29,690 nucleotides of DNA, from IMG/VR virus record IMGVR_UViG_3300044644_002207, positions 1-29,690 of that record; one strand, 5' to 3'. The notes beneath the pieces are model-generated. The model saw only the letters and a list, made by a program, of their open reading frames with translations, ran no database searches and had not been told where the DNA came from. The DNA is from a virus. The position numbers and the translations under genes are program-made. Below are positions 4,301-29,690 of the stretch, piece after piece (position 1 is the first letter of the stretch; each line of letters opens with the position of its first letter).

Positions 4301-4550
4301 AGCTCAAAATTTAGTGTATCCACTTTCTGCACTTGATGTTGATGGTCTAAGAGAACCTTTGCATGAAAATTATTATTTCTTTGAATTTCAACCAAAATTA
4401 CTTGGTTATACTTCAAACGTTGTAGATTGGAACTCAACTTATACTACAATTCCCCGCAGTCTTTCGTCTGATGAAATATGGTACGGAGAGGATCAAACAG
4501 TAGAATTATATTTCAATAATTTGCTTACCAAACGACTGTTCAGCAAATAA
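1368..4550 (+). CDS. Large virion protein with N-terminal PKD domain and central beta-propeller
   Basis: 1060 aa, ATG two bases after the gp6 stop. Residues about 5-90 are a PKD-type Ig fold: WDFGDG at 36-41 followed by VSHVYNYPGIYTVALSAWS. Residues about 455-745 hold repeated blades of the NHL/Vgb-lyase type, each with a (I/V)xxDxxNNVWV core (for example AIDISNNVWVASYN and AIDRQNNVWVAHGY), ending at AIDVFDRVWLVDSENNN. The C-terminal 250 residues have a helical part with an ERIANFVTNHSDVDTAEI stretch, then a tyrosine-rich tail. No signal peptide or membrane segment is visible. Its place directly after gp6 suggests a baseplate or tail-periphery role; T4 gp7, of similar length, occupies this slot, but I see no sequence reason to equate them. 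The propeller and PKD suggest protein or glycan binding; the actual ligand is unknown. Confidence 0.7.
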   Translation: MASLEFSVSPNKKGDVYATTFTFTKTTLPSYLNTTWDFGDGNFAYNSNKVSHVYNYPGIYTVALSAWSPVGELVVAYDFIDVDYIYRDAITITNLPKTWDVPGVVSEEPFFVSLTSAKINEPLSIVLHSLNSKSLPYDVSTSKWNFLNPRWRFIDAQTNQVVKGPIQLSSAPIYKDGIVVAVSSLAAFFYVDDSPTLVEEASCPVIVIATLSTENFSYPPESLVYPYYSYSNNETVQAATIWQTKNPIPTHLKVTENYYNDIYYYKWTGVPIPVMLTCSFDPAKLDTYGFVNNVSQTDLFSYPKINAYGLRNAVDLKLEGYAPSEYKVDDAPLYFQRLDENGLPIGGYIFTTITPLVSSKGTTTFITASTVATHNLQSTDNFMFPYAYPIDPIAYVAHPYQNNINKIQLAYYDSSCGIAKSYKDKGFLADGFINCINVPALYVTDTSNLEISGASNIYGLTYNPITRTLYGADADRNTICSINANEQITNITEISAVTQRIYDTPSYISIDRNFNVWVSLYDSATVIKYSPDLQTVLASATPVLSAYDILDEEGNPMIEPSVVETDRNNDVWVCYSHPLSSLLVKYSSSGVQLTGYNLGYNKVPTSLAIDISNNVWVASYNGSKLECFNTQGKLLSSYDFLKPSYIAIDRQNNVWVAHGYNLCSVLNTKTSAVSSWQVDTTTKTKKILFDQYTPLSGYPSSFVQQTIALNEIWGGIAIDVFDRVWLVDSENNNIGVFSTSTVNEFNVFGVAPKVSKNFIIKGNDDFTSEIPATVARSAQANGDWTGNRWYQKYATEYLTTNISGSSTPFLINNLDTVFTVAKVNDDFNCGAYMKSLALPEILNQNREFFDKFLPAVVGSGDVTKQDLGRTSYERIANFVTNHSDVDTAEIPQLHSLADEVGVPTKRYGVEFPGEVNYYLSLFSVPRKQLMGTEKLDPDFENTIGPLINFTDSISAGQYIYAKDRRYSNYQLIFTTRTSAQNLVYPLSALDVDGLREPLHENYYFFEFQPKLLGYTSNVVDWNSTYTTIPRSLSSDEIWYGEDQTVELYFNNLLTKRLFSK

Positions 4551-4562: not shown

Positions 4563-7500
4563 GTGGATTCTTCAACAACTCAACAACTCAACTATGAGAA
4601 AGACATAGATTCTCCTTATTCTTATTTGGAGTGGAAAGACAGAAACGCTGGTTATGAAAGTTCTGGCTCTTATAGTCGCTATGTTGCTGACTGGTTCGTA
4701 AAACACCAATATAAACCAATCTCTAAAAAATTTTTGATTCGTCAGAAGTATTTGTACATGCTTAGCCAGTTACAGACTTTTTTTACAGACGAAGAACTTC
4801 AGAACTGGTACAGCAAAGCAAATTTGCAAGACGATAATGATTTGCTATTAAGCATACCTTTTTTTGCAAAAAAACTTAAACAAATAGCGCTGTATTATTT
4901 AAAATTACGTAAAAGATTAAAAAGCGCAAAAATAAAATATAATATAGTAGGGTCAAAGAGAGGACTTGAAACAGAAATTCAACATAGACTTTATGAAGTG
5001 TTTTCTACATTAAATGAAGAACTTCCTCCTGAAGTAAGAAACAATCTGGTGGGTCCTGAAACTCTCACTCAAACACTAAATGTTGAATTAGAAGAATTGT
5101 ATGATGATTCATCATATTTTGATAAATCTTCTTCTGTTCCTTTATCCAGTTACGTTGACCTATTATATGAACCTACGAGAGAGTTATTTTTATCAAAAGG
5201 GCTTGCTTTGTCTTCAGATAGTTGGGCGTTTAATGCTTTGGCCGTTCCTTCATTTGAAGACGTAGATGCTTTTGTATCAAGTCTTACAGGAAATATATTC
5301 GAAACATCCGATGCTGATTTATACAAAAGTTTTATACAAAAGTTCATAAACGAAAACAAACTTTCAACTACGTTTAATTCAGCGAGCACTTCTGTGTTAG
5401 AGCTGTTTATTCCTTTATTATCAGGAAACAATAGATTCTTTTATCCAACTGGAATGGCTGACAGCACAATTAAGTTAGATTATGTGTTGGATCCCGTTCC
5501 TTTAAGTTCAGTCGTTCCAAGCTTGGGCACTGCTTCTACCACGATAAGCGCAGCGGATACCATTTTCGTAAGAAAGGGAGATACAACTAAAGGAGCTTGG
5601 TTAAAATATAGAGAGTTTAACGAAACAAAAACAGAAATGGAAGCCTACTTAAAGGCTAACAAGAAAACTACATTTATTTTTCCTTACCCAGGTTATGGTT
5701 TATCAGGAGAGGATGTGGCTTGGACTGGCAGTAGTCTTTCAGCAACATACGAATATGATTTCTTGTCTGAAGAAAATAAAAAGGCCACTTACGAATCCTA
5801 CTGGAATCAAATTTTGCCAGACGATACAGTGGATTCTGTGTTGATAAACAATACCTCTCTTGTATTTCAAGGAGCGACGAGTACAAAAAATCCAAATTTT
5901 TCTGATAAACTATACGTGTCCGAACAACGTCCTGTTGCTCCATTTGATATGCCAGGTGGAGAGGAAATAGGAACTTGGCTCTACAAGTTTGATAAAACAT
6001 CAATTCCGGTTGTACCTGAATCATTTGACGGCAAAGTATTAGTGTGGCCTTATGAGTATACTTCACAGGATACAGAACTATCTGGTCAATTTTTAAATTT
6101 TGATTTTAAAAAAGTTTGCGAACCGATATCCATTCACAATCTATCTGTTCCGTTTGCTACTGCTGGAACAAGCATCAATGGCTCAGAAAAAATATACAAA
6201 CTAGCAAGACACAATGATTCAATAGAAGATGCTATTGAGTGTTGCTGGTTATCTGGTCAAACAATTACTACAGAAGATATTAATTGGATTTCCCAACAAG
6301 GGTTTTCTGCATTATTTGCTCCAAATATTCCAACTAAGTTCGTGTGGACTGGAGCAAATAACACTCCTTTGAGTAGCGTTTTTGGTTTTGTGACACATTC
6401 CGAAGATTGTCAGTTTGCTCAGAATTTAGAAGAAACTAATCCAACAAAGTGTTCGTGCAAACAAGTCTACTATTCTCCTTACGGTCATCCAGGAGAGACG
6501 TTTACAGAGTATAACTCAAGAGCTGATTATATTATTAAGCTTCCTACTCTCGACCCCGCTCCTTTTGATTTAGGTTCGTGGTCAGATAGTAATAACAAAC
6601 TTCCTGTGGACTCTACAGAATTTGTTTGGTTTAAGACAAATTCTGCACAAGGGTGGGGTAACGGTAAATGGGTTTGTGGAGCTCATTGGTCAAAACCATT
6701 TTCACTTGAAACAGGAAAAGCTTATATTTTTAATCGCACTCAATCGCGAGACGAAACTATTTATCCTCCATACTCTGTTAATTTTAAACACTCCACCACA
6801 AATCAAACAAAATGGATTCAAGCTAGAAAGACTGAAGATTCAGATTGGATCTCTGCTGAAAAAACAGCAAACACTATATTTCAAGCAGGAGACTTTATTA
6901 AATGGAACAGAGCAGATTCTGTTGCTAGTTATTTTTTATCTGCTACTCAAGTAGAAAACGAAACCAAAAGACTAAGCAGCTTGTGGGCGTCTTATGATCA
7001 AGTAACTGTTAATAGCACGTTGTTGCCTTCCACGACGCTGACATTCCCGTTTATTTCTCAAGTCACTAGCGACCCTTCTTCTACTACTCAATTGCCTATT
7101 CTGAGTGCTGGACGTTACATTAGTTTTTCTGACATTGCTCAAGTATATTGGTGGAAATTTACTAACACGAGTATTCCAGGAAGCTCTCCGTTTTATGTTT
7201 ACAACGATGTAGCAGCAACGTTTACTCCAACAATTACAGGAACATACACCGTGGAAGTTTCTGCTGAAGTAAATACAACGTTTGCTATAACTACAGCTGG
7301 AGGAGAGCAACTGACACAAAACGTATATTTTAATAGCTCCGTCATTCCTCCTATATACGCAATTCCAACGTATAGAATCGAACTCGTTCCAATTGAAGTT
7401 AAAACTCCTACTAGCGGGTTTTTAATAGAGCAGCAATTAACTGGCTGGAACTATGACGCAAGTACATATGATGGAACTTCAAATGGAGGAAGACCATACT

Positions 7501-10169
7501 GGGCTGAACTATATTTAACCAAAGAAGAAAATACAAAGTTCAAAAACTTAGTTGTTTGGGGGTACGGTTCTGAATTTATTAACGGATATATTCCAGACTT
7601 TTCTCCAAAACTTTCAAACATACAATTAAATTACGGAAATGTAGTTTACTATGAGAGAATTGGGAGTTCGTTTGCTTGGTCTCAGCCAATTACATTTAAA
7701 GAGTTTATTGGCTTAACGGAATGGTGTGAATTAACCTCGTCTTCTGTAACATATGGAGCGTTATCTTCGTTATATTACATAGGAGCTGAAGGCAATCCTT
7801 CTGGAGATGCTACTTCTCGCCCTACTGATATTACGTTAACAAATTTTGATAACGGCTATCCAGTTGAAGTATTTTACAATGCAATGTCTACGTTTGATTG
7901 GGCATTGTCTGTCGTAAAGCCAGTTACTCCAGCAGACCCAACAACTATAGTGGCATTAGAGGCATCGTCTCCTTGGAGTGTATTGTCAAATAGATTCAAT
8001 CCTACTATTGCTACAGCTCCTGAATTATCTAAATTATATTCTATAAAAGACGTTGGAGGATATTTTACGCCGGAACGCTTGGGCGCGTCTCAGTATATTA
8101 ATAAAAATTTCAATGTTGCTACTCTTTCGAGTAACAATAACTTTACAGCAATAACAGAAGATACAGCTGTTCATGTCGGAGGATACGGGCTGACTACCGA
8201 GCTTCAGCCAACCTTATACAAATGGAGTGAAGACAATCGTTGGATAAAAGAACCTCCTACCACAAACAAGTTAGCCGGTTCAATTAAAAAGACGCTATCC
8301 CAAACTCTTCAGTCGTTCGTGCCTTATCAAACCACCAACAAACAAAAACAACTCGGTCTAAATAAAACAGATGACAAAAAGAGTCCTTGGGGAGGAATAA
8401 CAAAAACCGAATGGACAGAGGGATCTGACAACTTTACGAGCTTTACAGGAGTTCACAGTGTTCCTGCATGGACTGACTTGCAAATTAGCAAAGATAGAGG
8501 AAAAGTAATGGATCAGTGGGCACACGATGTTTACGGAAACAATTACGGTTTGTTGAAAGAAACTCTTAGTAGCACATCTGGAAATTTGTGGGTCAGAAAG
8601 CCAGATCAAACAATAACTCCTGGTCAGGTTTCTTTATCTTCCGTATTTGCTCCAATAAAAGATTTATCTCTTAGTGTTTACTCAGAGTTAACAGGAAATG
8701 GAGTCAAAAACTTAAATTGTTATTTTGATACATTAATGCTGGAAACTTCAGGAGCAGTTGTGTTTGCAAAAGTAATTTATGATTTTGATACGAATCAAAT
8801 TAAAAGCACTCTAGATGATATTAAATTTATAAACTTAGTTAGTTCTTTAACCAGTGTTCGTACTCAAGTTAACCAAACATGGCATCTTCCTGAAAGCAAT
8901 AAAATTGTTTCCTCGTTTACCGTACTGTCCTCTAATAAAATTTTTCCGGAGATTTATGAACTAGATTTAGCTTCCAATACTCTCATAAAGCAATATCCAA
9001 CGGATAAGGCAGAAGCTGAAATGCTTTATCAATCTTTGAGTGGGTTGAACGTACAAACATTGCAAACTGGCTTACTTACGTACAATAAAAATTTACATCA
9101 GTTCTTGTTAACTATTCCTGGAACTCAAACAAATGATACACCATTTGTAGTTGATATACTAATTGATCGCAGACAGTATTATACCACATCAGATGTTAAG
9201 ATATATAAAACATTTGAAGTAATAAATCCTCCGTACGTTGTTAATTTTGAAACTATTAATAACGAATATGTGGATATTCAATTCTCTCGTTCGTACTCTT
9301 CAACGGAAAAAATCCAAAATGTAATTCTATTCAATACAGATGGATCAACCATAAAAGTGTTGTTTACAAATGACAATACGTTTACACTTTCTGGTTCATT
9401 TAATTCTACTGGAACTAAACAAGTAATATGTGAAGTGTCGAACTCGGCTGGAAAAAATGCATTTCCATTGACTTTTAACGTAGCGAATGCTCCAACGCCT
9501 ACTCCGACCTCCACTCCGACCTCCACTCCGACCTCCACTCCGACCCCGACTCCAACTATATTACCTTTAAGATATAGCTTGGTGGCTGATCCAAGTTCTT
9601 GTGTTGATGGAGCATATTTTGCTGATTATGTGTTTGTTGATGGTTCCACGCTTTGCGATTCGTATAGTTTGTTGTCAAATGAATTTTCTCCATATTCTGA
9701 TGGAGCGTATATAAACATTTCTGATGGAATAACTGTCAGAGAAGGCGTTATATTTAAAACACAAGGAGAAGGGATTGGAATTACCTTTACTGGAATTTGT
9801 CAATCGTGCTTTGGTTCTACTCCAACTCTTACTCCTACTCCAACATTTACTCCTACTCCTACTCCAACATCTACTTCAGCTGGTCTCGTTCCAGGAACGT
9901 ATTATGCTTACGCTTTAGATGCAGGAACAAACGTTTGTGTTTCAACAGATATTTTAAATTCTGCTGAGTTAAACTTGGGAGCAACATCATTTAATACAGC
10001 AACATCAATTGAATCAGGAACATTAGAAGCATTACTTGATCTCAGCACCATTAACATTGGAGATACTCTCTACATATCGAATGGCATCACAAAGAGATCC
10101 GGAACCCTCAATATAACAGGAGGAGTAGTTAAGATAACATTCTCTCCTGGATTTAACTCTTGTTCCTAA
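4563..10169 (+). CDS. Giant tail/baseplate structural protein with PKD and duplicated C-terminal domain
   Basis: 1868 aa from a GTG start; the next in-frame ATG is near residue 67 and would cut into the helical N-terminus. Residues 1-150 are charged and helical, quite unlike the rest, and probably anchor the protein in the virion. Residues about 150-1550 are beta-rich, with many aromatic and Ser/Thr residues, a small Cys cluster (CSCK near 635) and an Ig/PKD-like stretch near 895-925 (FTPTITGTYTVEVSA). A PKD-like domain at about 1552-1640 is followed by a Pro/Thr linker (1642-1665), an 85-residue domain, a second Pro/Thr linker (about 1751-1773) and a related 95-residue domain at the C-terminus. 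Both terminal domains share ISDGIT/ISNGIT, a Gly-rich turn and a final Cys pair or single Cys. It is likely a long tail-periphery protein or fibre. I do not recognise the middle section. Confidence 0.65.
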   Translation: MDSSTTQQLNYEKDIDSPYSYLEWKDRNAGYESSGSYSRYVADWFVKHQYKPISKKFLIRQKYLYMLSQLQTFFTDEELQNWYSKANLQDDNDLLLSIPFFAKKLKQIALYYLKLRKRLKSAKIKYNIVGSKRGLETEIQHRLYEVFSTLNEELPPEVRNNLVGPETLTQTLNVELEELYDDSSYFDKSSSVPLSSYVDLLYEPTRELFLSKGLALSSDSWAFNALAVPSFEDVDAFVSSLTGNIFETSDADLYKSFIQKFINENKLSTTFNSASTSVLELFIPLLSGNNRFFYPTGMADSTIKLDYVLDPVPLSSVVPSLGTASTTISAADTIFVRKGDTTKGAWLKYREFNETKTEMEAYLKANKKTTFIFPYPGYGLSGEDVAWTGSSLSATYEYDFLSEENKKATYESYWNQILPDDTVDSVLINNTSLVFQGATSTKNPNFSDKLYVSEQRPVAPFDMPGGEEIGTWLYKFDKTSIPVVPESFDGKVLVWPYEYTSQDTELSGQFLNFDFKKVCEPISIHNLSVPFATAGTSINGSEKIYKLARHNDSIEDAIECCWLSGQTITTEDINWISQQGFSALFAPNIPTKFVWTGANNTPLSSVFGFVTHSEDCQFAQNLEETNPTKCSCKQVYYSPYGHPGETFTEYNSRADYIIKLPTLDPAPFDLGSWSDSNNKLPVDSTEFVWFKTNSAQGWGNGKWVCGAHWSKPFSLETGKAYIFNRTQSRDETIYPPYSVNFKHSTTNQTKWIQARKTEDSDWISAEKTANTIFQAGDFIKWNRADSVASYFLSATQVENETKRLSSLWASYDQVTVNSTLLPSTTLTFPFISQVTSDPSSTTQLPILSAGRYISFSDIAQVYWWKFTNTSIPGSSPFYVYNDVAATFTPTITGTYTVEVSAEVNTTFAITTAGGEQLTQNVYFNSSVIPPIYAIPTYRIELVPIEVKTPTSGFLIEQQLTGWNYDASTYDGTSNGGRPYWAELYLTKEENTKFKNLVVWGYGSEFINGYIPDFSPKLSNIQLNYGNVVYYERIGSSFAWSQPITFKEFIGLTEWCELTSSSVTYGALSSLYYIGAEGNPSGDATSRPTDITLTNFDNGYPVEVFYNAMSTFDWALSVVKPVTPADPTTIVALEASSPWSVLSNRFNPTIATAPELSKLYSIKDVGGYFTPERLGASQYINKNFNVATLSSNNNFTAITEDTAVHVGGYGLTTELQPTLYKWSEDNRWIKEPPTTNKLAGSIKKTLSQTLQSFVPYQTTNKQKQLGLNKTDDKKSPWGGITKTEWTEGSDNFTSFTGVHSVPAWTDLQISKDRGKVMDQWAHDVYGNNYGLLKETLSSTSGNLWVRKPDQTITPGQVSLSSVFAPIKDLSLSVYSELTGNGVKNLNCYFDTLMLETSGAVVFAKVIYDFDTNQIKSTLDDIKFINLVSSLTSVRTQVNQTWHLPESNKIVSSFTVLSSNKIFPEIYELDLASNTLIKQYPTDKAEAEMLYQSLSGLNVQTLQTGLLTYNKNLHQFLLTIPGTQTNDTPFVVDILIDRRQYYTTSDVKIYKTFEVINPPYVVNFETINNEYVDIQFSRSYSSTEKIQNVILFNTDGSTIKVLFTNDNTFTLSGSFNSTGTKQVICEVSNSAGKNAFPLTFNVANAPTPTPTSTPTSTPTSTPTPTPTILPLRYSLVADPSSCVDGAYFADYVFVDGSTLCDSYSLLSNEFSPYSDGAYINISDGITVREGVIFKTQGEGIGITFTGICQSCFGSTPTLTPTPTFTPTPTPTSTSAGLVPGTYYAYALDAGTNVCVSTDILNSAELNLGATSFNTATSIESGTLEALLDLSTINIGDTLYISNGITKRSGTLNITGGVVKITFSPGFNSCS
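9501..9545 (+). repeat. 12-bp tandem repeat encoding Thr-Pro-Thr-Ser
   Basis: ACTCCGACCTCC occurs three times in perfect tandem (9501-9536), followed by a partial copy. Each unit is four codons, so gain or loss of a unit keeps the frame. It forms the first Pro/Thr linker of the 1868-aa protein. A second, diverged ACTCCTACTCC-type tract follows at about 9814-9880. Confidence 0.9.
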
Positions 10170-13074: not shown

Positions 13075-16000
13075 TTAATTAAAGTAATTTGCCAGCAACT
13101 GGATGTTGGTCCATAGCTGTTTAGTTAGTCTATTAATTACAGAATTTGTAACTATTTCGTTTTGTCCGATGGTTATGTCGGATTTAGTATATAAAGGAGC
13201 CACATATGTCTTTTGTTCTGGATGTGTAGCCATATTATAATGCAGCGAATTGCGAATTAATTCTACGTTGTCCCACAGTCTGTGAAAGGCTTTGAGATAA
13301 ACCCAAGACTGTATATATTCCTCTTTGTGGATTTTAATGTTATCAAAACCCCAATACAAATCGCTTGGGATTGGAGATTTAGTAGATACTAACTTCATTC
13401 TGTCTGTATATTTTAGTATTTTGTCATTTGCACAAATATACAATTCTCTCTTAGCGTTGTGAAAAACTCCTTTAAATTGCTCTAAATATAAACCATTTGA
13501 GCAAGACATTTTGTTTATTAACGCATCAAACAATACTCCGGTTCTAAAGTATTTGTCTACTCCGTGAAAATGAGAAACGTAAATTATTTCTCTATTGTGA
13601 GAACATACGATTTTAGAAGGATTACGGACATTAGAAGATAATTTATATTCCGTTACATATTCTCCACTTTGATTAAGAACAATTACTTTTGTGGTTAAAA
13701 GTACGTGCATGAGCCGAGCAGAATCGATACAAACACTTATTGGAGACTCAGCATCAAATGAAGAATGTTTGTATGTTTTAAGATATTTTCCAGCTAGTGT
13801 ATATTTTTTTATAACCTTGTTCCCTGTATCGGTTATATATAATGAATTGTTTTGATCAACTGCAATGTCTTTCGGTCTATTAAATCCATAAGCATTAGAC
13901 ACAAGTCCAAACCGACCCCAAGAATCTACTTGAGTCAATCTATCATTTTCTACTTCATATACTGAAACTCTCGGAATTAACGAATCCAGCACATATACTT
14001 TATTTCCAGCAGAACACACTCCTTCAATATTAGCAAAAGCATACAACGTGTCAGCTAATCCCGCTCTGTGTAATTTAGAAGGAGCGTATGTATTTTTAAC
14101 TAATACTAATTCGGTTTTTTTTGCTATAACTAAATAATTTCCAATTTCTATACAAGCATTATTCACACATCCTTCTGTATATCCACAAAATTGTAATGGG
14201 AAAAATTCTTGATCAATGGTGCTTGTGTGCCAGCTTCCTAAATCGCAAGGCAAAGCAATAGAATCTAATTCGCAAGGTTCGTAGGACCACTTCTTTGCCA
14301 AAGAAGCCCCCGTTCGAGTACTCTTCCAAGTTGTCGGAATAGTGGAGTTTGCTCTGCGGCGAGCGTCCCATCTCCATTCTAAACAATATTTTTGCAAGCA
14401 AGTTTTATCGCTCTCCACTTCCGTGTTACAGGTTTGTTGATTCCAAAACAAAGGAAACCCGTTACTATTGGTGTCAAGTTGAGTTGGTACATGATCCGAC
14501 CATTTTAATTTATCAGTATTTCCGGGAAGACATTCAAGATCAGTCCAACGGTAATTAGAATTTCCTAGCCAAGCATAAAAGTTACTATCCGTTACATAAA
14601 GATTGGTGTGATTGTTAATCTTTTCTATTTCTTCATATAAAAACTCAAGCACAGTATTAATGTTTTTTTCTGTTACCCACTCATTAGGGGAAAGAGATGG
14701 AGCACTCAACTCATATGTATTAAGAGACGTGTTGGTGGAGTGATAATACTCAACTATGGCTGCATCATCATATGCTTCTACTACATCAACCATGTCAGGA
14801 ATAATGTTAGTAACTTCATCAACCTGATTTGTGTTTATATTTAAAAATGCAGACGTAACAGTCAATGTTTGCTTTCCTAATTTGGTGAAAGTAATCTCAA
14901 ATGGCTTCTGCAGACTACTTCCAGACAAAACTCTCGTATTGGAATGTTCCGAAGAAATACTTACTTTTTGCAGTTGAAGGTGAGGCTGAGCAAAAACTTG
15001 CAGAGGTTCAAAATAAGTTACATCATTCTTGATGGCTAAAAAATTTGGTGTATATAGTTTTACGAACGGCTGCGTAGTTATAACCGTAGCACTGCTATAC
15101 ACTTCTCTTTGAATGTTTGGCTGCCAATCATAAGGAAATTTTTGAATTTGTACCTTTTTAAAAGCTGACACTGTGCTCGTAACAGTTGTATCTGTTAGAG
15201 GAGAAATTTTTAAAATCGGAATAGATTCCGTTGCTGTTTGGATGTAGTTTAAAGGAAATCTATAACCATTTGTTGTTGGAAGGTACGCAGTGCGATATGA
15301 CCAATTGCCTGCTTGTGAAATGTTATCTATTACAGCATCTGTTTGCCACGTAGTAGCGCTCAAACCATAGTACAATAAAGAAGAAATTTGTTTGTCTATT
15401 AATCTAGTTTCAAACCAATTTGTTGTATAATCAAATGGAAGCTGAGTTAAAGACGAACTAAAAGCAGGAACAAACGTATAGTTTGTCGTATTCGGATAAG
15501 GTCTTACGTGAATGTGACTTTTAAATTTATTGTCTGCTCGTTCAACTCCTGAAGGCAGCAAGGATGAATCATAAAAACTATAGTTTTTCTTTTCTCCTGT
15601 AGCATCGTCGTAATAATGAATAGGTCCGTTTAATGTAATATCCGGAGTGGTAAGACGCAAATGAATTGGTATTTTTTCGTCTTGAGATAATGTAGAAGAA
15701 ATTTTTACTGTTGCAGTATTGGAGGTCCTTGGAGTAATCGCCCACTCCGTTGAATTTGTTTGATTTCCTACTAGCCAATTTATATTTGCTGTCGTGCCTC
15801 TTGCTGACAACTGTATTAATTCGGTATGGCCTTCTCCGTAAAAGAATAAACCCGGACCTCTGTCGTATTTTTCTTTGGTTGATGTTATTTGTTCTCCAGT
15901 TTGTTCAATGAAATATGAACTCGGATAGGCAACAAAAGTGGCTGTTGGAAACGAATCCAAAAACTTAACAGACATTGAGTAACCAGTTACATCTGTTGGG

Positions 16001-16275
16001 TCATTTTTGGCTGACAAATAAACTTGTATGGAATGGGTTCCGGCGTATCTTCTATCAAATGATAAAGAAACTCCGCTATTTAAATCAAAGTCAGCCAAAC
16101 TGCTTGGCACGTTGTTTATTGTATATTTTGCTGTAAAATAATTCGGCAAAGCAGACAGCTCGAATGAGTCACTTGATATTCGAGCTGTAGCGCTGTAGGG
16201 AACAGCAGAAATCAATCTGTAGAAAACACTGTTGTTATTACATCTTTCAAAATTTACAAACAGATCAAGTGACAT
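13075..16275 (-). CDS. Large virion protein with C-terminal NHL beta-propeller
   Basis: 1066 aa. Residues about 1-560 are beta-rich, Ig-like and Ser/Thr-rich (for example YAGTHSIQVYLSAKNDPTD near 80), consistent with tandem Ig or PKD-like modules. Residues about 580-708 are rich in Cys and Trp (11 or so Cys, including CEL...LPCDLGSW and GCVNNAC) and may be disulphide- or metal-stabilised. Residues about 725-960 form an NHL-type propeller: GFNRPKDIAVDQNNSLYITD followed by GNKVIKKYTLAGKYLKTY is a textbook NHL blade. The last 100 residues are helical and end with an IGQNEIVTNSVINRLTKQLW stretch, which looks like a virion-attachment or oligomerisation tail. It sits between the LamG/propeller protein and the fibre, so it is probably another adhesin or baseplate-peripheral component. 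Ligand unknown. Confidence 0.7.
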   Translation of the reverse strand: MSLDLFVNFERCNNNSVFYRLISAVPYSATARISSDSFELSALPNYFTAKYTINNVPSSLADFDLNSGVSLSFDRRYAGTHSIQVYLSAKNDPTDVTGYSMSVKFLDSFPTATFVAYPSSYFIEQTGEQITSTKEKYDRGPGLFFYGEGHTELIQLSARGTTANINWLVGNQTNSTEWAITPRTSNTATVKISSTLSQDEKIPIHLRLTTPDITLNGPIHYYDDATGEKKNYSFYDSSLLPSGVERADNKFKSHIHVRPYPNTTNYTFVPAFSSSLTQLPFDYTTNWFETRLIDKQISSLLYYGLSATTWQTDAVIDNISQAGNWSYRTAYLPTTNGYRFPLNYIQTATESIPILKISPLTDTTVTSTVSAFKKVQIQKFPYDWQPNIQREVYSSATVITTQPFVKLYTPNFLAIKNDVTYFEPLQVFAQPHLQLQKVSISSEHSNTRVLSGSSLQKPFEITFTKLGKQTLTVTSAFLNINTNQVDEVTNIIPDMVDVVEAYDDAAIVEYYHSTNTSLNTYELSAPSLSPNEWVTEKNINTVLEFLYEEIEKINNHTNLYVTDSNFYAWLGNSNYRWTDLECLPGNTDKLKWSDHVPTQLDTNSNGFPLFWNQQTCNTEVESDKTCLQKYCLEWRWDARRRANSTIPTTWKSTRTGASLAKKWSYEPCELDSIALPCDLGSWHTSTIDQEFFPLQFCGYTEGCVNNACIEIGNYLVIAKKTELVLVKNTYAPSKLHRAGLADTLYAFANIEGVCSAGNKVYVLDSLIPRVSVYEVENDRLTQVDSWGRFGLVSNAYGFNRPKDIAVDQNNSLYITDTGNKVIKKYTLAGKYLKTYKHSSFDAESPISVCIDSARLMHVLLTTKVIVLNQSGEYVTEYKLSSNVRNPSKIVCSHNREIIYVSHFHGVDKYFRTGVLFDALINKMSCSNGLYLEQFKGVFHNAKRELYICANDKILKYTDRMKLVSTKSPIPSDLYWGFDNIKIHKEEYIQSWVYLKAFHRLWDNVELIRNSLHYNMATHPEQKTYVAPLYTKSDITIGQNEIVTNSVINRLTKQLWTNIQLLANYFN

Positions 16276-16300: not shown

Positions 16301-18796
16301 TTAGTCGACCCACTCAATCTTAATTAAATCGACGTAAGCTGGTTTGGTTTCCTTGATTAAATCTAATATTTCTTCTTCAACTAGTTTTTTTGTTGTTGGG
16401 TCAGTAATGCCTGTTCCTGTAAGTTTTAATTTAAAAAATTGAGATTTGGCCCCTGGAAGCTTGTGCTTAAACATTCTTTCAATGTGTTCTACATATTGCG
16501 TTTTGGGGATCGGCAAGGGCCAAATTAAATCTTGAGATACCATACTAGCGTGTTCAAATAAATTAATATTGCGAAAGTCTAAAGCATAATCAAACGCTCT
16601 AACGTCTCCTATCTTTCCATTAAAGATGTTGGACACACATTTAAGTTCAGAATTCATTCCAAACACGCTTCCAGTCGGAGTTCCAATAAAAAACGAAGGT
16701 TGAGTATCAAAACTTAAACTGTCTTGACCTCTAAGTTTGAGTTCTGCTATTTTTGTGTCATCACAATATAAGATTCCTATTTTATTTTTAAATACGAGAA
16801 CAAAATGCTTCCAGCTATCTTTTTCCCAATTTTGTATCGAGCCAAATGCTTTTGTTGGGCAGTTATATATTACTCCTGTTTTAGAAGTATCTTTAACAGA
16901 AGCTTTTATTGATATCTGAGGCTTGTTTAAATAAGGAGGTAGCTTACTAAAAATACGCTGTCTCTCATAACCAGTAAAGTCTCCTACTGACAAGAATTGA
17001 GTATTTTCAATTTTTTGAGAAAGTTTTTGTATAAGAATTGGATCAAAAGTTGTGTTTAAATCTAAAGTTTTAATTGGTTTTCCATTCAAACCATAATAAT
17101 ACAAAATTTTCTCATCCGTATAAAAAACAACTAAGTTCCATTCATTGGTATTAGTTTTTCTGTTATATCTTTTCGTAAAACTTATATTTTTAGTTCTCGT
17201 TTTACCGTCTTGAATCGTTGTGTATCCTACATCTAAAGTAAGCATAACAGAAGATAAACTTGGATTGATTGCAGTAACATTATTATTACCATGAGCTATC
17301 CATAAATTGTTGTCTGGACCTATAGAAAAATTAGTTGCTCTGTCTTTAAATGAATAAAATAATACATCATTGCGATACAAATTTCCGTCTTGAGAAGATA
17401 TGGACCACTTGGTTTGTTCATCAAACTTTACATCATATACGTTTGTAGAAACGTCTAATGCAGCTGTACCAAGAGTAGTATCATATCGAAACGCTACCTT
17501 TATATTGTTCTCTTGACTAGATATGCCTATGGAGGATTTGTATACAAAATCAGCATTGAACGAATGTATTGCTTTATTAGTAACAACATAAAAGTCATCA
17601 TTTAATCCACACAATAGTTGTTTCGGTTTTTCTCCGCTAAGAGGAAATACAAATAAAGTAGAAGGATCGTTAATGCTTTTCGTGGTTTTAATTACATAAC
17701 CAGAATGATCCATTTTGTAAATTACTCCAGCACTATCGTCATTACATACGATGACGTGGTTATTAGAATCTATTCCAAAGCAAACTGGATTGACGGAAGC
17801 AAGCCTCGTTTGAACTGACTTATCTAAATAAGCAGAACGATTTTCGTTAATAAAAATCACGTGACCATAAGTTGTCTCCGGAATAGCTAAAAACGGAAAC
17901 GTTTCCAGAGTATCAATAAAAACTCCAATGCCTCCTCCTTTACTTGAAAGATTGCCAATTAATTGAGTGGACGGAGATGCTTGCCAATCTTTAGAATATG
18001 CCCAAAAAGACCACGTAAACTCATTTGTATTTAAATAATTCGAATTGTATTCAAGCTTAGCGTTTACATTGTATGGGTTATTAAAATTTAAAGTAGAGTT
18101 AAAAATACGAACTCCATCATTAGCAGAAGGAGAAACAATTAAAGAAGAAGTGGAAGCATCCGTTTGAATGGAAACGTCAATACTGTTTAGTGAACGATCA
18201 ATTGTTGTTGTGTCCCACTTTGTCAAGTGCATCTTTAATCGCTCTCTGTCTTTTCCTTCAAATGTTTCTATTAATTCCTTTGCTGTCTTTTCTCCTAAAT
18301 GAAAATAACGATACAACACTCCGGGCTCAAAAGTTAATGTAGAAGGAACGTCTTTAAACACCGGATCGGACTTGACATATCGAGGTTGATCAAAAAGTTG
18401 ATTTACTGCAGTATTATAATCAAATTTGCCTGGTTGATAATATCGATCCAACCATCTTGGAATGCCAGTCTCTGAGTCTTTATAAAGCCAACTACAAAAC
18501 CACATGCCGTTATTCGTATAAGCATTACCATTTGGGGTTACGTCACCATACCCTTTTTGGCTTTTAAAAATTCTATCAGATGCTGCAGGAAACATTCCAG
18601 CAGTTGCTCCATTAATAATTAAATCAGTATTAACAAGAGAGATTGGAGTGGCATATGCTGGAACGTGAAAAAAAGTTTCTGTGTCTTTTTTTAGTGTAAT
18701 CTCGTTTTCCTCGTATTGATATCCTAAAGAAATTCCCTCGGAACCTTCTTCTGTCTGTTTGTTTACATATATCTTATTGTAAGTTCTCTGATTCAT
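16301..18796 (-). CDS. LamG-type adhesin with inserted beta-propeller
   Basis: 831 aa. The N-terminal 230 residues are unrecognised. Residues about 258-315 match the first half of a LamG/concanavalin-like domain (EFTWSFWAYSKDW, then NLSSKGGGIGVFID). Residues about 330-600 are propeller-like blades (CFGIDSNNHVIVCNDDSAG; FSIGPDNNLWIAHGNNN). Residues about 655-745 give the second half of LamG (DSWKHFVLVFKNKIGILYCD, a sugar-fold FIGTP strand, then FNGKIGDVRAFDYAL). So the propeller appears to be inserted within the LamG fold. The C-terminus (about 765-831) is a small alpha/beta tail ending YVDLIKIEWVD. Its ATG overlaps the stop of the preceding 300-aa gene by one base (TAATG), so translation is probably coupled. 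It is likely a virion surface protein that binds host or environmental glycans. Confidence 0.7.
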   Translation of the reverse strand: MNQRTYNKIYVNKQTEEGSEGISLGYQYEENEITLKKDTETFFHVPAYATPISLVNTDLIINGATAGMFPAASDRIFKSQKGYGDVTPNGNAYTNNGMWFCSWLYKDSETGIPRWLDRYYQPGKFDYNTAVNQLFDQPRYVKSDPVFKDVPSTLTFEPGVLYRYFHLGEKTAKELIETFEGKDRERLKMHLTKWDTTTIDRSLNSIDVSIQTDASTSSLIVSPSANDGVRIFNSTLNFNNPYNVNAKLEYNSNYLNTNEFTWSFWAYSKDWQASPSTQLIGNLSSKGGGIGVFIDTLETFPFLAIPETTYGHVIFINENRSAYLDKSVQTRLASVNPVCFGIDSNNHVIVCNDDSAGVIYKMDHSGYVIKTTKSINDPSTLFVFPLSGEKPKQLLCGLNDDFYVVTNKAIHSFNADFVYKSSIGISSQENNIKVAFRYDTTLGTAALDVSTNVYDVKFDEQTKWSISSQDGNLYRNDVLFYSFKDRATNFSIGPDNNLWIAHGNNNVTAINPSLSSVMLTLDVGYTTIQDGKTRTKNISFTKRYNRKTNTNEWNLVVFYTDEKILYYYGLNGKPIKTLDLNTTFDPILIQKLSQKIENTQFLSVGDFTGYERQRIFSKLPPYLNKPQISIKASVKDTSKTGVIYNCPTKAFGSIQNWEKDSWKHFVLVFKNKIGILYCDDTKIAELKLRGQDSLSFDTQPSFFIGTPTGSVFGMNSELKCVSNIFNGKIGDVRAFDYALDFRNINLFEHASMVSQDLIWPLPIPKTQYVEHIERMFKHKLPGAKSQFFKLKLTGTGITDPTTKKLVEEEILDLIKETKPAYVDLIKIEWVD

Positions 18797-24168: not shown

Positions 24169-25161
24169 TTAGAATAGATCCTCTTCAGAAAACGATTGGT
24201 TTTTCTTAGCATATCCAACAGGACGGCTATGAAAAAAGTCGGTTGCATTTTCTCCAAGTAGCTCTTCATCAAACCATACTGTAGTTTTTAATAATTCTTT
24301 GTCAACATCAAAAGCCTTTTTAAATTTAATTTGCTTAAGAGATTCATTGATTCTATTTTTAATGAATTCTTTAAGAATTGGTGCACTGAGACCTTCTTCT
24401 TGTATTCCGTTTACCATCCAATCTACAATTTTTGCTTCTGATTCAAATGCCTCCAATGCTTCTTGGCGAATCTTTTCTTCTAGTTCTTCATCAAACAATT
24501 CTGGATATTCCTTTCTGATTGTATTCACAATTTGAATACCAATTAAAGCATGTAAGTTTTCTTCATTGCGCGTGTATTTGACTTGTTGATCTGTATCTTT
24601 TAGCACGTTTTTAAAACGAGCAAACCAATTAACAACATAAAATTGAGAGAACAATGAGACATTTTCAACAAACAGAGTAAACAAAATTAAAGCATAAAGG
24701 TACTGTTTTTTAGAATCCTTATAAAATCTGTGGGTATATTTTTTAAGATATTTTACTCGACCTTGAATCCAATCAAGCTTAAGATTTTCTTCAAACACGT
24801 CTTCTAACCCAAGAACTGTCAAAAGACGTTCGTATGCGTTATTGTGAATAACCTCCGTGTTTGCCATTACATATCCAAGATCAGCAAGAGAAGGATGCGG
24901 GAGATTTTCTCCAAGCTTGGCCCAAAACGTTTTGACAGCAACTTCTATTTGACCAATAGCAGAAAGAGTGCGAATGATAATTTCTTTTTCTTGTTCAGTT
25001 AGCGTGACTTTAAAGTTTTGAATATCAGACTTGAAATTAAATTCTTTATCTGTCCAAAACCCATTGTGAATAGCTTCCATGTACTGCTCTGTCCAAGGAT
25101 ACAAATTAGGCTTTCGAGAGATTTGCTCTTCAAATATTTTGAGGTTGTTTTGAGTTTTCAT
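24169..25161 (-). CDS. nrdB: Ribonucleoside-diphosphate reductase beta subunit
   Basis: 330 aa. It carries the di-metal centre and tyrosyl radical that start each reduction cycle in NrdA. All ligands can be placed: E73 (QIEVAVKTFW), E103 and H106 with the radical tyrosine Y110 (NTEVIHNNAY, the family's ExxHxxxY), E166 (FVENVSLF), and E201/H204 (EENLHA, ExxH). The C-terminal SFSEEDLF is the acidic/aromatic tail that docks on the alpha subunit. The first ligand is Glu rather than the Asp of E. coli. The gene precedes nrdA, the reverse of the common order, and follows a 56-aa gene by six bases, so these form one operon. Confidence 0.95.
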   Translation of the reverse strand: MKTQNNLKIFEEQISRKPNLYPWTEQYMEAIHNGFWTDKEFNFKSDIQNFKVTLTEQEKEIIIRTLSAIGQIEVAVKTFWAKLGENLPHPSLADLGYVMANTEVIHNNAYERLLTVLGLEDVFEENLKLDWIQGRVKYLKKYTHRFYKDSKKQYLYALILFTLFVENVSLFSQFYVVNWFARFKNVLKDTDQQVKYTRNEENLHALIGIQIVNTIRKEYPELFDEELEEKIRQEALEAFESEAKIVDWMVNGIQEEGLSAPILKEFIKNRINESLKQIKFKKAFDVDKELLKTTVWFDEELLGENATDFFHSRPVGYAKKNQSFSEEDLF

Positions 25162-25387: not shown

Positions 25388-25906
25388 TTAACGCTTTGGT
25401 TTAAAATTCCCGCCGCCGGGTTGAGTGTCATCCCACTTGTTAGCTCCAGGAAGCTGGGTGTTTGAATTAGACAAATTCATATCCGATTTTACTTCTTCTG
25501 GACCATGGATGTTGTTTTTGCGGCGAAGGCTGTCAGGAATTGGTCCTCGTTCGCTTCCATCATCAATTACTTCAACTGCCTCGAAAGGAACCGTCATTGG
25601 GTTACGATAAAGACCGGGAGCATATTCAATATAAATGTCTAAAAATACACCATCGGGAGCAGAATGGCCTGCTTGAAAATTATAAGCAGATGTTGGATAA
25701 ATTGACTTTACTGCTCCAACTCTTAAATTTAAATCAAAAGAAGGTTCCATGCAAGCTCTAACAATATCTTGGTAGGATTTAGCTCTACTAGCAATGTAGT
25801 CCATCTTTAAAGCATCTTTTTTAAAACGAATACGGTCTCCAACTACTATGCCTCCTTGTTGGAATCGTTCTAATTCTTTTTCAAATAGTGTATCGAAGTC
25901 GCTCAT
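25388..25906 (-). CDS. Conserved phage protein of unknown function (172 aa)
   Basis: Begins MSDFDTLFEKELERFQQGGI, followed by VVGDRIRFKKDALKMDYIAS and a beta-rich middle (FDLNLRVGAVKSIYPTSAYN; DIYIEYAPGLYRNPMTVPFE), then a disordered, Gly/Pro/Asn-rich tail ending GGGNFKPKR. The VGDRIRF and later strands are compatible with a small barrel-like domain. I have a sense that close relatives exist in large T4-like phages, always as hypothetical proteins. It is first in the nrdB-nrdA operon and has a late-type motif six bases before the ATG. No catalytic motif is seen. Confidence 0.75.
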   Translation of the reverse strand: MSDFDTLFEKELERFQQGGIVVGDRIRFKKDALKMDYIASRAKSYQDIVRACMEPSFDLNLRVGAVKSIYPTSAYNFQAGHSAPDGVFLDIYIEYAPGLYRNPMTVPFEAVEVIDDGSERGPIPDSLRRKNNIHGPEEVKSDMNLSNSNTQLPGANKWDDTQPGGGNFKPKR

Positions 25907-26191: not shown

Positions 26192-26743
26192 ATGTCACAA
26201 CAGACTTTAAATAACGCTGAGTCTCTTTACAATATTAGGACTAAAATTAATGCTAATTTTGCGGAACTATACACTTTTATGCAATCCGTGTCTGGATTAA
26301 TTCCGACAGCAAGGCCTACATCCACTCCGACTCCGACTCCCACTTCTACTTCTTCTGCTCCAACTCCGACTCCGACTCCGACTCCCACTTCTACTTCTTC
26401 TGCTCCAACTCCGACTCCCACCTCCACCTCAACTCCTACTCCGACCCCTACTGGACAAGAAATTGTTATTCCCTTTACTGATTATTTGGAAGGACCTGAA
26501 AGCAGTTTAGAAGATTTGGAGATGGCCTCAACAGAAATAGATCTATTTTTCTTTGACGTCGAAGACGTAACAATTGTTGGCTCTCCAGCTATTATGGATA
26601 TTTACGTCAATTCCATACAACGAGCAAGAATTACATTTGATGGAGGCAGAATAGGTAAACCATTTGGTTATATTACATCCACGTACACAGGAACAGATTT
26701 GCAATTCGAAGGAAATTTTGTAGCAGGGGAAGTTAATTTCTAA
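26192..26743 (+). CDS. Short fibre-like virion protein with Pro/Thr linker
   Basis: 183 aa in three parts. Residues 1-40 (SLYNIRTKINANFAELYTFM) match the kind of N-terminal segment that many phage fibres use to attach, with the K-I-N-A-N-F-A-E-L core, and echo the INNNFSKV opening of the 854-aa fibre. Residues 42-86 are a Thr/Pro/Ser linker of (TP)n type with two TSTSSAP blocks. Residues 87-183 are a compact beta-rich, acidic domain (DLFFFDVEDVTIVG; RARITFDGGRIG) of unknown type. It is probably a short virion appendage with a terminal binding domain. A late motif is five bases upstream. The linker resembles those of the 1868-aa protein and the next gene. Confidence 0.7.
   Translation: MSQQTLNNAESLYNIRTKINANFAELYTFMQSVSGLIPTARPTSTPTPTPTSTSSAPTPTPTPTPTSTSSAPTPTPTSTSTPTPTPTGQEIVIPFTDYLEGPESSLEDLEMASTEIDLFFFDVEDVTIVGSPAIMDIYVNSIQRARITFDGGRIGKPFGYITSTYTGTDLQFEGNFVAGEVNF
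26315..26449 (+). repeat. Pro/Thr linker with a 39-bp direct repeat
   Basis: The tract is built from ACTCCG/ACTCCC hexamers interrupted by TCT-rich blocks. Positions 26324-26362 recur exactly at 26369-26407 (39 bases, 45-base period), so the array can expand or contract in frame. It encodes the linker of the 183-aa protein. Confidence 0.9.
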
Positions 26744-26802
26744 CCAACACACATAAAATCAGAGCTACTCAGCCTCAGTAAAAAAAATTAAAACTAAAAT
26801 TG

Positions 26803-26810
26803 ATAAATAA
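26803..26810 (+). promoter_or_regulatory. T4-type late promoter motif for the large adhesin
   Basis: ATAAATAA in TTGATAAATAATAATAC, 11 bases before the ATG at 26822. Confidence 0.6.
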
Positions 26811-26821
26811 TAATACAACTT

Positions 26822-29690
26822 ATGAGACAAATCAACTTAATTGGCGATCCAAAAACTGGTAAACTCAACTTTTTTAATAACGAAAATACTACTTCAATTG
26901 ATATTAAGCAGTACAATCAGCACTTAATTGAAGTTCAAGCTATTAACGCTTCTGGTACAGGCATTACAGCATACAGACCAGGACCAATCAATACCTTTTC
27001 TACTTTTAAGCCAAATGAAAATTATATTGCTATCGCTAAGGGAGGCTTTTCAATTACGCTTCCGACTGCTCCAGCTGTCTCGAGAGCTGCTTCTACGGCT
27101 AATTTCGCAGTTAAAGGTAACGCCACTGCTCAAAGAGGCAAACCAACTATTTTTGTTTATCCATATGCCAGACCTCAGTTGATTAGCAAATACAACGCCC
27201 AAATTAGCTTGGTTTATTCTCCAAACTCAACCAACACTTTCTTGCGTTCATATCGTCCGTTTTCTACAAGTAACGGCTTCGAAGCTTTTGAACAAGGTAA
27301 AGGCTACATTGTTTTTGCTAGAGAAGATTTTGTAATTGAAAATCCAGATGTAGTTCAACCAATCCCTACTCCTTCAAGAACTCCAGTACCTACTTCAACT
27401 CAGGTTCCAACTCCGACTCCGTGGCCTTCCCCAACTCCGTATCCTGGATGCACCGTTAAACCTCCACTCCCACCACCACCAACCCCAGTCCCTGGTCCAA
27501 CGAACACTCCAGTTCCAACAAATACTCCACGTCCAAGTCCGACACCGTTACCATCAAGTACTCCAGCTCCAACCTCAACCCCAATTTCCCGTATTACGTT
27601 GACCGGACCAACACAAGCTAGAGAAGGAGATGTAATAACATTCGTAATTTCTAACAGCTACCCGAGAACAAGTAGCGTTGCTTGGACAATTGGCGGTCCT
27701 GGAATTAACGTTTCAGATCTTTCTGAAGTGAACGGAGTCACTCCAACTTCTCTAGGAGGTACAGCTCTATATGATGGAAGCGGAGTTGCCACAGTAACAC
27801 TTAAATTTGCTAAAGACGGCTTAACAGCTGGTGCAGGTTTTGAAACATTTACATTTACAGTTGATGGTGGCACAGAAGCAGGCGTTTCTCGAACATGTGC
27901 AGTTTATGATTACATACCACCAGCGCCACTCGTGGATAATGCACAGTTTGTTAGTATGGTTAGTGTTCCAGATTTCGTAAGAGCATATGGACCTGAAACA
28001 TTAACAAACGAAGAAGCTCAAGCTTATTTAGATCGCTATGTTGACTTGCGAAACGCCTTTGGGGCAACTAATATTGCTGCAGCCAAAACCCATTGGGTTA
28101 ATCACGGCCGTAGAGAATACCGAGATGGTTCCATTGCTGGTCGAACATATCCTGTAAGAGTTCGGATGAAAAATACCGGTACGACTACATGGACAAGTGG
28201 TGGAGCAAATCCTTATCGTTTAGGTTCTCAAAATCCACAAGACAATGGGAATTGGGGCACAGGTCGTGTAGAATTACCTAACTCTGTGGCTCCAGGACAA
28301 GAAGTTGAGTTTGTGTTCACTGCTAATGCAACCAACATCTATCCCGGAACTGCCAACTTTAGTTGGAGAATGGTGAGAGAGCTCATCACTTGGTTTGGTG
28401 AAACAGCTACTGACGTAGTAAACGTAGGACAGGCAGCTCCTCTTCCTACTCCAACAGCAACCGCACCGGCAGCTACTCCACTCCCAACTCCAAGTCCAAC
28501 TCCGAGACCGATCACACCTACTCCAACACCAACAATAGTGCCAACAAGCACTCCTACTCCTACTCCGCTTCCTCCAACACGGATGCCGGAGCCAACTCCG
28601 GTTCCTCCAACTACATATGACATAGAAATGCCAGCACAGGCAAATGAAGGGGACGTGGTTACGATTAATTTCGTCCGCAGAGGACCAAACGTTGGATCTA
28701 CTACTACCCGTCCTTGGGCTCTGTATGGCACAGGTATTGTTCTTGCTGACTTTACTAGAATAAATGGAGCAACTCCAACTGCCTTAAACGGATTTGTTGT
28801 TTTAACAAATCAAGGCACTACTAACGGAGTAACTTTATATAGAGGTTCAATTACGGTTGAATTTAAAAAGGACAAATTAAAAGCAATTGGTGGTTTTGAA
28901 ACGCTTAATGTTCAAATTACTAATGAGGCTACAAACTTCCAATACGTTGAGTCTTTAAGAATCATGGACAAAGTGGTGGGGGTAAATTACGAAATTGCAG
29001 GTCGCAATGATACCATCGAAAAAGTGACGTTGACTCAAACTATTACAAAGAGAAATGCTAGCACTAGAGCTGCTTTCCTTGATATTCCTTGGGACATTAG
29101 TGGAGCTAGAGTCAATTTAAATGACTTTGCACAAATTAATGATGTCAAGCCAACAGCACTCAGTGGTTTGTTTAGATTGTACCCTACATCGACGACAAGC
29201 CTTAACGAAAACGGTGGGTACAATTACTCAGCAAATTTCACAATAAACTTCACAGCAAACAAAGACAAAACACCTGGCGGAAAAGAAACTATCTCGCTCA
29301 GATTCAGTCCTTCTGATGCTCCTGCATTTAATAAGTCGATTGACATCTTTGACAATCCTCCTGCAGTTTATTATGAAATTTTAGGACCAGGCGAAGGAAA
29401 TGAAGGAGAAACAATTAACTTTACTATTAACCGTAAAGGCGGAGGTCAAATATCTTCAACTAGAACAGCTACCTGGTCCGTTAACGGCACCGGTATCACT
29501 TTAAGTGACTTTGCTAGAATTAACGGAACATCTCCAGCTAGATTAAATGGAACATTAGAACTCAAACAAACTGGTGTATTCAACAACGTTGGAGGCAAAG
29601 AATACCAAGACCTTTGGCAATTCCAGTTTGCTAAAAACAAAGACAATAAAGTTAGAGGCGGCTTTGAATCATTTACTTTCAAAGTTGATG
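26822..29690 (+). CDS. Large multi-domain adhesin (3' partial)
   Basis: Open from the ATG at 26822 to the right edge (956 codons, no stop). Residues 1-179 ([20 protein letters not shown]...) are probably the virion-attachment part. Residues 180-255 are a Pro/Thr linker. About 256-365 is a Calx-beta-like domain ([12 protein letters not shown]...[11 protein letters not shown]). About 375-440 holds [13 protein letters not shown] followed by [16 protein letters not shown], a Y-L-x-R-Y-x-D-...H-W-x-x-x-G-R-x-E module. About 441-540 matches NBR1-type Ig domains ([48 protein letters not shown]). A second linker (540-598) leads to at least three more Calx-beta-like repeats, each with NEGDxVxINF/NEGExINF, GxxLxDFxxINGxxPxxLxG and GGFE(T/S). 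It is a host- or surface-binding virion protein by inference. Confidence 0.8.
27359..27589 (+). repeat. Pro/Thr-rich linker 1 of the large adhesin
   Basis: Low-complexity tract of ACTCC(A/G)-type codon pairs encoding Thr/Pro/Ser, with a polyproline stretch (PPLPPPPTP) and one Cys in the middle. It separates the N-terminal attachment part from the first Calx-beta-like domain. Confidence 0.8.
28439..28614 (+). repeat. Pro/Thr-rich linker 2 of the large adhesin
   Basis: Low-complexity (TP)n tract (about residues 540-598) between the NBR1-type Ig domain and the Calx-beta-like repeats. Third-position bases vary, so this tract is older or less homogenised than the one at 26315-26449. Confidence 0.8.

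Follow-up and report, generated by a model that had tools for sequence, protein, structure and literature searches.

An FW (NBR1-type) domain and an RTX-type helical module in a candidate fibre-like adhesin of a T4-like freshwater phage

Introduction

Ig-like phage proteins are known adhesins, and those of gut phages are modular (PMC13370021). In phage T4 the Hoc protein is a string of Ig-like beads with one virion-binding part (PMC10385173). FW domains, which take their name from four tryptophan residues (PMC9233695; PMC9582228), are protein-binding modules in eukaryotes (PMC9233695). So far they have come from autophagy receptors, from ILRUN and from bacterial proteins, and the literature that we searched for NBR1 or FW domains together with phages gave no report of one in a phage.

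In this article, we describe an open reading frame (ORF) from a viral contig that encodes such a domain. Its product resembles T4 Hoc (PMC10385173) and the gut-phage adhesins (PMC13370021) in being a virus-encoded string of Ig-like domains, of a kind that occurs in varying combinations and with a virion-binding part. It differs from them in having what is likely to be an N-terminal anchor, in containing both an FW domain and a second, helical module (HW), and in having spacers rich in proline and threonine (P/T-rich). Ig-like phage adhesins are already known; what sets the present candidate apart is the presence of FW and HW among phage-type beads.

Source of the sequence

The ORF lies at the right-hand end of a 29,690-base virus record (IMGVR_UViG_3300044644_002207), the whole of which was analysed and is referred to below as the window. 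Genes in the window include those for a T4-like baseplate wedge protein, for tail fibres and their assembly, for a small heat-shock protein and for a phage ribonucleotide reductase, and the source is a freshwater virus of bacteria that is a distant relative of phage T4. A further contig (L002), encoding proteins that are 100% identical, covers the left region and appears to be a second contig of the same phage. It ends at ~26.2 kb, short of the ORF, at a point inside the P/T repeat of the gene immediately upstream. P/T-rich repeats probably break assemblies in these phages, as the end of L002 inside one illustrates. P/T-rich linkers of the TPTPTS type are recurrent, being found at 26192-26743, in the 3' part of 4563-10169 and in several genes both here and in two related phage loci, L006 and L008. 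Elsewhere in the window, three large proteins (1368-4550, 13075-16275 and 16301-18796) contain stretches that, read by eye, are NHL/beta-propeller-like; the first and third of these are similar to one another (25% over 226 aa, E 7e-5).

Architecture of the open reading frame

The ORF begins with an ATG at 26822 and runs for 956 codons (26822-29689) with no stop codon up to the end of the contig. Its parts are as follows:

26822..29690, + strand: putative modular adhesin/fibre ORF, still open at its 3' end when the contig stops after 956 aa
26822..27352, + strand: N-terminal domain (aa 1-177), a tandem duplication of ~90 aa, by shuffle-tested pairwise comparison
27353..27583, + strand: P/T-rich linker 1
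27584..27919, + strand: beta-sandwich bead 1, earlier labelled Calx-beta-like, assigned by homology to the other beads; no PF03160 match
27947..28129, + strand: HW...HG...E helical module, matching by profile a single HY-type repeat of bacterial RTX-type proteins; modelled as helical
28130..28432, + strand: FW (NBR1-type, PF16158-related) Ig domain with four tryptophans, from intermediates, alignment and model
28433..28609, + strand: P/T-rich linker 2
28610..28981, + strand: beta-sandwich bead 2, the modelled bead, from bead homology and a structure model
28982..29365, + strand: beta-sandwich bead 3, by bead homology
29366..29689, + strand: beta-sandwich bead 4, incomplete at the contig end, by bead homology

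A preliminary description of this DNA had read a single frame holding an N-terminal segment, a linker, one bead, an HW module, an NBR1-type Ig domain, a second linker and further beads, and we could verify this order. It had also proposed three or more repeats after the second linker: three are present, the last of them truncated by the contig end.

The FW domain

Whether the Ig domain belongs to the NBR1 family cannot be read from the curated Pfam profile alone. PF16158, for which the curated cut-off is 28 bits, scored 17.5 bits against the whole phage protein and 22.6-22.9 bits against the isolated domain, so that by the profile threshold named in the preliminary description itself the NBR1-type claim would fail. 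The low score is attributable to membership of a divergent subfamily, since close cellular relatives fare little better: a Terriglobia domain 61% identical to that of the phage scored 23.8 bits, also under the cut-off, and an Acidobacteriaceae domain 58% identical reached 28.0 bits, just at it.

The connection was instead made through intermediate sequences. A search with a seed alignment comprising the phage domain and two Janthinobacterium plasmid proteins (one FG-GAP-like, one RHS) found 37 cellular loci with domains 35-61% identical to that of the phage, from Acidobacteriota, Patescibacteria, Oxalobacteraceae, Bacteroidota, Myxococcota, archaea and others. In the resulting alignment of 41 members (the phage domain and 40 cellular domains), PF16158 matches 40 of the 41, at best with 1.3e-11, and the four conserved tryptophans are present in the phage domain, within TTTW, GNW, FSWRM and TWFG. 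When a profile of the FW members was compared with the whole of the PDB, the two best matches were human NBR1 (4OLE) and ILRUN (6VHI). The structure model of the domain has a pLDDT of >85 across most of its length, and in a structure search ILRUN 6VHI was the third hit (TM 0.69 by target, E 0.002), with other Ig-like folds scoring close to it and no structural hit passing E 0.001.

On the grounds of intermediates, signature residues and fold, rather than of the curated cut-off, the phage domain is a divergent, PF16158-related FW domain. The NBR1-type label of the preliminary description is thereby sustained, the predicted fold agreeing with it, although the N_BRCA1_IG profile search on which that description had meant it to rest stayed below threshold (17.5-22.9 against 28 bits) and the link came by way of intermediate sequences. 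With the rest of the FW/NBR1-type family (NBR1, ILRUN, bacterial RHS, FG-GAP and other proteins) the phage domain shares the four tryptophans, an Ig-like fold and the intermediate-sequence link; it differs in being phage-borne, in belonging to a subfamily marked by LGSQNPQDN and in standing outside any PB1, ZZ, UBA or RHS context. The FW tree gave no resolved placement, its sole hint of origin being a weak pairing with a Pseudoduganella domain (94/43), and for this reason the naming of a donor was rejected.

One bacterial FW domain, used as query against the 50,697 phage records of INPHARED, gave no match. FW or FW-like domains are seen in two other viral contigs. The first (L124:3928-9512) has three, one ending a 529-aa ORF (29.0 bits) and two in a 1362-aa ORF (60.7 bits), where they are followed by right-handed beta-helix domains in a tailspike-like layout. 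The phage nature of L124 is weakly supported by PHROGs, and it could be the edge of a provirus. In the second (L125:7872-9119), a 415-aa ORF begins with an FW-like segment and seems to include an enzymatic domain; this ORF has no Pfam match at E 0.001, and the same contig also carries Dit and tail-fibre genes.

The HW module

The 61 residues directly before the FW domain form the HW module, which has no match in Pfam or in PHROGs. Weak tblastn matches led to Azospirillum RTX-type proteins containing tandem units of the form YLxxYxDLxxAFG...HY...G..EGR. A profile made from ten such bacterial RTX-type units (the HY profile), each verified as present in its locus, scored 38.7 bits against the phage protein, and the maximum over 2000 shuffles was 6.6 bits. 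The separate HW module of the preliminary description is therefore borne out, and the segment is modelled as helical with moderate confidence. By its sequence, the module is a single copy of a helical repeat from bacterial RTX-type proteins. It shares with the HY-type RTX repeats (Azospirillum, L085, L086) the signature YLxxYxDLxxAFG...H[YW]...G..E that underlies the 38.7-bit score, and is distinguished from them by its single copy, one additional residue, HW in place of HY and the lack of RTX nonapeptides.

A DNA pattern for HY/HW at the bacterial spacing, which is one codon shorter than that of the window, found no match in the viral_contigs set. HY-type modules are seen in other viral records. 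Tandem copies occur in L143:397-2883 (E 3e-4), the 198 kb record of L081, an nrdB-related phage contig, where they precede a region that reads as glycosyltransferase-like from its sequence. The unannotated gut phage record MT836085.1 has four module matches around 215-325. The HY-type module is thus widespread and occurs in other viruses too.

The beads

The four beads (27584-27919 and 28610-29689) are mutually homologous, with BLASTP values of about 1e-7 to 1e-18. The preliminary description called them Calx-beta-like, and this label did not survive. There was no match to PF03160 at E <= 10 in either the whole record or the isolated beads. Against seven genuine Calx-beta domains, which PF03160 had located in the Marinoscillum furvescens genome, profile-profile comparison gave P 0.13, no better than the FW control; the score was reached in 5 of 150 shuffles, and the reversed alignment scored higher. 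The bead model is a beta-sandwich (pLDDT 89.9 and pTM 0.83 for the best model, the other four reaching only about 65), and its 50 best PDB hits comprise generic Ig-like folds only, with no NCX calcium-binding domain among them. What the beads have in common with Calx-beta domains is a tandem beta-sandwich of about 110-120 residues and superficial EG...GT...ET motifs. They differ in giving no profile or significant profile-profile match and in having other structural neighbours, and Calx-beta membership was rejected on these grounds.

Compared with viral models, in contrast, the bead model gave seven hits that pass E 0.001, including virion or baseplate proteins of the cyanophages P-SSM2 and S-CAM3, neither of which has a PF03160 match. 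The bead profile finds a 485-aa ORF of P-SSM2 (PSSM2_126, Q58MM8) at E 0.001, which is independently also a fold match and which sits among neck, packaging and sheath genes, that is, late structural genes. This and other cyanophage bead proteins share the bead by sequence profile and by fold, but are without FW and HW. Taking sequence and predicted fold together, the best description of the beads is that of a repeat of phage virions, and not of captured host domains; their nearest relatives are cyanophage virion proteins.

The N-terminal base and the surrounding locus

The two halves of the 177-residue N-terminal domain are similar to each other (z 9.9, 0/1000 shuffles), which makes the domain a tandem duplication. 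Over its whole length, it resembles the N-terminal part of an L006 protein of 548 aa (z 9.6, 0/1000 shuffles), which has a clear homologue in L008 (z 65.6). Direct similarity between the domain and the L008 protein is weak (z 1.8), and the two are linked only via L006; hhalign of the N-terminal domains was not significant, although the full-length pairwise shuffle test was. Beyond the N-terminus the window, L006 and L008 proteins diverge.

The genes and motifs upstream of the ORF are as follows:

24169-25161: nrdB, the second synteny anchor
25388..25906, - strand: divergent neighbour o25388, a synteny anchor present in 20 related phage loci
26178..26185, + strand: AATAAATA, a late-promoter-like element 14 bp before the companion gene
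26192..26743, + strand: companion gene directly upstream of the ORF, with an N-terminal segment, a P/T-rich linker and a C-terminal domain (similarity tests)
26802..26809, + strand: GATAAATA, a T4-type late-promoter-like element 20 bp before the start codon of the ORF

The C-terminal domain of the companion is common to its L006 and L008 equivalents (z 8.4 and 7.4, 0/1000 shuffles each). In both of those loci, divergent from o25388-nrdB, come a P/T-rich gene, a gene of 548 or 557 aa and then an o10493-like fibre gene. The position thus carries fibre-type genes whose bases are related and whose distal parts differ. Relatives of the N-terminal domain were found only in related phages. FW, HW and the beads were not found in related phages, apart from an unrelated G050 protein; the bead profile and PF16158 had no match over 50 related phage records, in sets that held no positive control. 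Searches of viral_contigs and the INPHARED phages with the whole protein, the N-terminal domain, HW-FW and the beads gave no close relative.

Late promoter motifs and composition

The window contains no strict TATAAATA late promoter. The form NATAAATA occurs at ten sites, seven of which precede a gene start on the same strand by no more than 70 bp, where 0.18 would be expected. This placement, together with GATAAATA 20 bp upstream, a usual distance for such an element, supports the earlier suggestion that the ORF is late-controlled. The placed sites (4546, 16289, 21067, 21694, 25921, 26178 and 26802) lie just upstream of genes on both strands, hsp20 and 25388-25906 among them.

Over the ORF, GC content rises to about 44%. 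This reflects amino-acid content, since third-position GC of every segment of the ORF is inside the phage range (that of the FW segment is 0.31; phage median 0.26, 95% 0.35). Recent transfer was rejected, third-position GC bearing no trace of it.

The preliminary description had further proposed that modules of host surface proteins were captured. For FW and HW this holds in so far as both have relatives in cellular proteins; the beads are closest to virion proteins of T4-like cyanophages, and for the N-terminal domain, with its relatives in related phages only, capture can be set aside.

What might the protein do?

Our preferred reading, to which we give a probability of roughly 0.6, is that this T4-like freshwater phage expresses the ORF late, as a protein of the virion that works as a fibre-like adhesin. 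Ig-like domains encoded in a late or structural gene, the mark of an Ig-like phage adhesin, are found here, and since eukaryotic FW domains are protein binders (PMC9233695) and adhesion can be mediated by Ig-like proteins of phages (PMC13370021), an adhesin is the natural reading. The duplicated N-terminal domain would attach the protein to the particle and the P/T-rich stretches would act as flexible stalks, with the Ig-like beads of phage-virion type as spacers or weak binders. The HW-FW pair, placed between the linkers, would be the candidate for making contact with a surface protein or glycan, either of the host or of neighbouring cells. The true tip of the protein may lie beyond the contig end.

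The T4-like context, the late motif and an N-terminal base shared with relatives whose distal parts differ all argue for such an adhesin, as do the matches of FW and HW to bacterial RHS/FG-GAP and RTX-type domains and of the beads to cyanophage virion proteins; we also count in its favour the FW domains beside beta-helix domains in L124. Against it count the lack of a whole-length homologue of established function and the weak direct N-terminal similarity to L008. The modular late-expressed adhesin of the preliminary description is thus a fair reading as regards the late motif and the position of fibre-type genes in relatives; presence on the virion, N-terminal docking, stalks and adhesion itself are what we infer.

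The main rival, though an unlikely one, is a decoration fibre like Hoc (PMC10385173), an optional string of Ig-like beads by which particles would be anchored to a matrix or to other cells; phage would be concentrated in this way, but the host would not be selected. A bead-on-a-string layout with one virion-binding part would fit T4 Hoc (PMC10385173) as it would other Ig-like adhesins (PMC13370021), and an optional gene would be expected to be missing from relatives; the modules were not found in the 50 related records (a set with no positive control). However, the equivalent gene in L006 and L008 adjoins a fibre gene, the Hoc anchor is C-terminal where that of the present protein is likely N-terminal, and capsid-binding homology was not found.

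We think it improbable that the protein is a purely structural component of the tail or baseplate, in which FW, HW and the beads serve as assembly or spacer domains with no surface ligand. The beads do resemble cyanophage virion and baseplate proteins, and eukaryotic FW domains have proteins as ligands (PMC9233695), but assembly parts are usually conserved, whereas FW, HW and the beads were not found in related phages (the unrelated G050 protein excepted) and relatives have a different distal part at this position. Fusion of a bacterial surface-protein gene to a phage contig during assembly, to which the higher GC over the ORF and a junction seen once only (L002 stopping at ~26.2 kb in the upstream P/T repeat) might point, is already disfavoured and very improbable, given that the C-terminus of the companion and the N-terminus of the ORF both match same-position genes of related phages, that homologous phage-type beads flank FW on both sides in one frame, that third-position GC is phage-like and that a NATAAATA motif precedes the gene.

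Beyond the fibre-like adhesin proposed for this one phage, FW Ig domains might serve tailed phages in receptor binding, as cassettes that are swapped on a conserved N-terminal base, with HW-FW recognising a specific surface protein or glycan; this we regard as a tentative and rather doubtful extension.

Concluding remarks

The FW domain characterises the selective-autophagy receptor NBR1 and is present also in bacterial proteins; it is now seen in a phage protein of virion type. A tempting misreading is corrected at the same time, in that the Calx-beta-like beads are best taken as a phage virion repeat and not as captured host modules. If HW-FW does bind a surface ligand, it would offer a handle on the ligands of bacterial FW domains.
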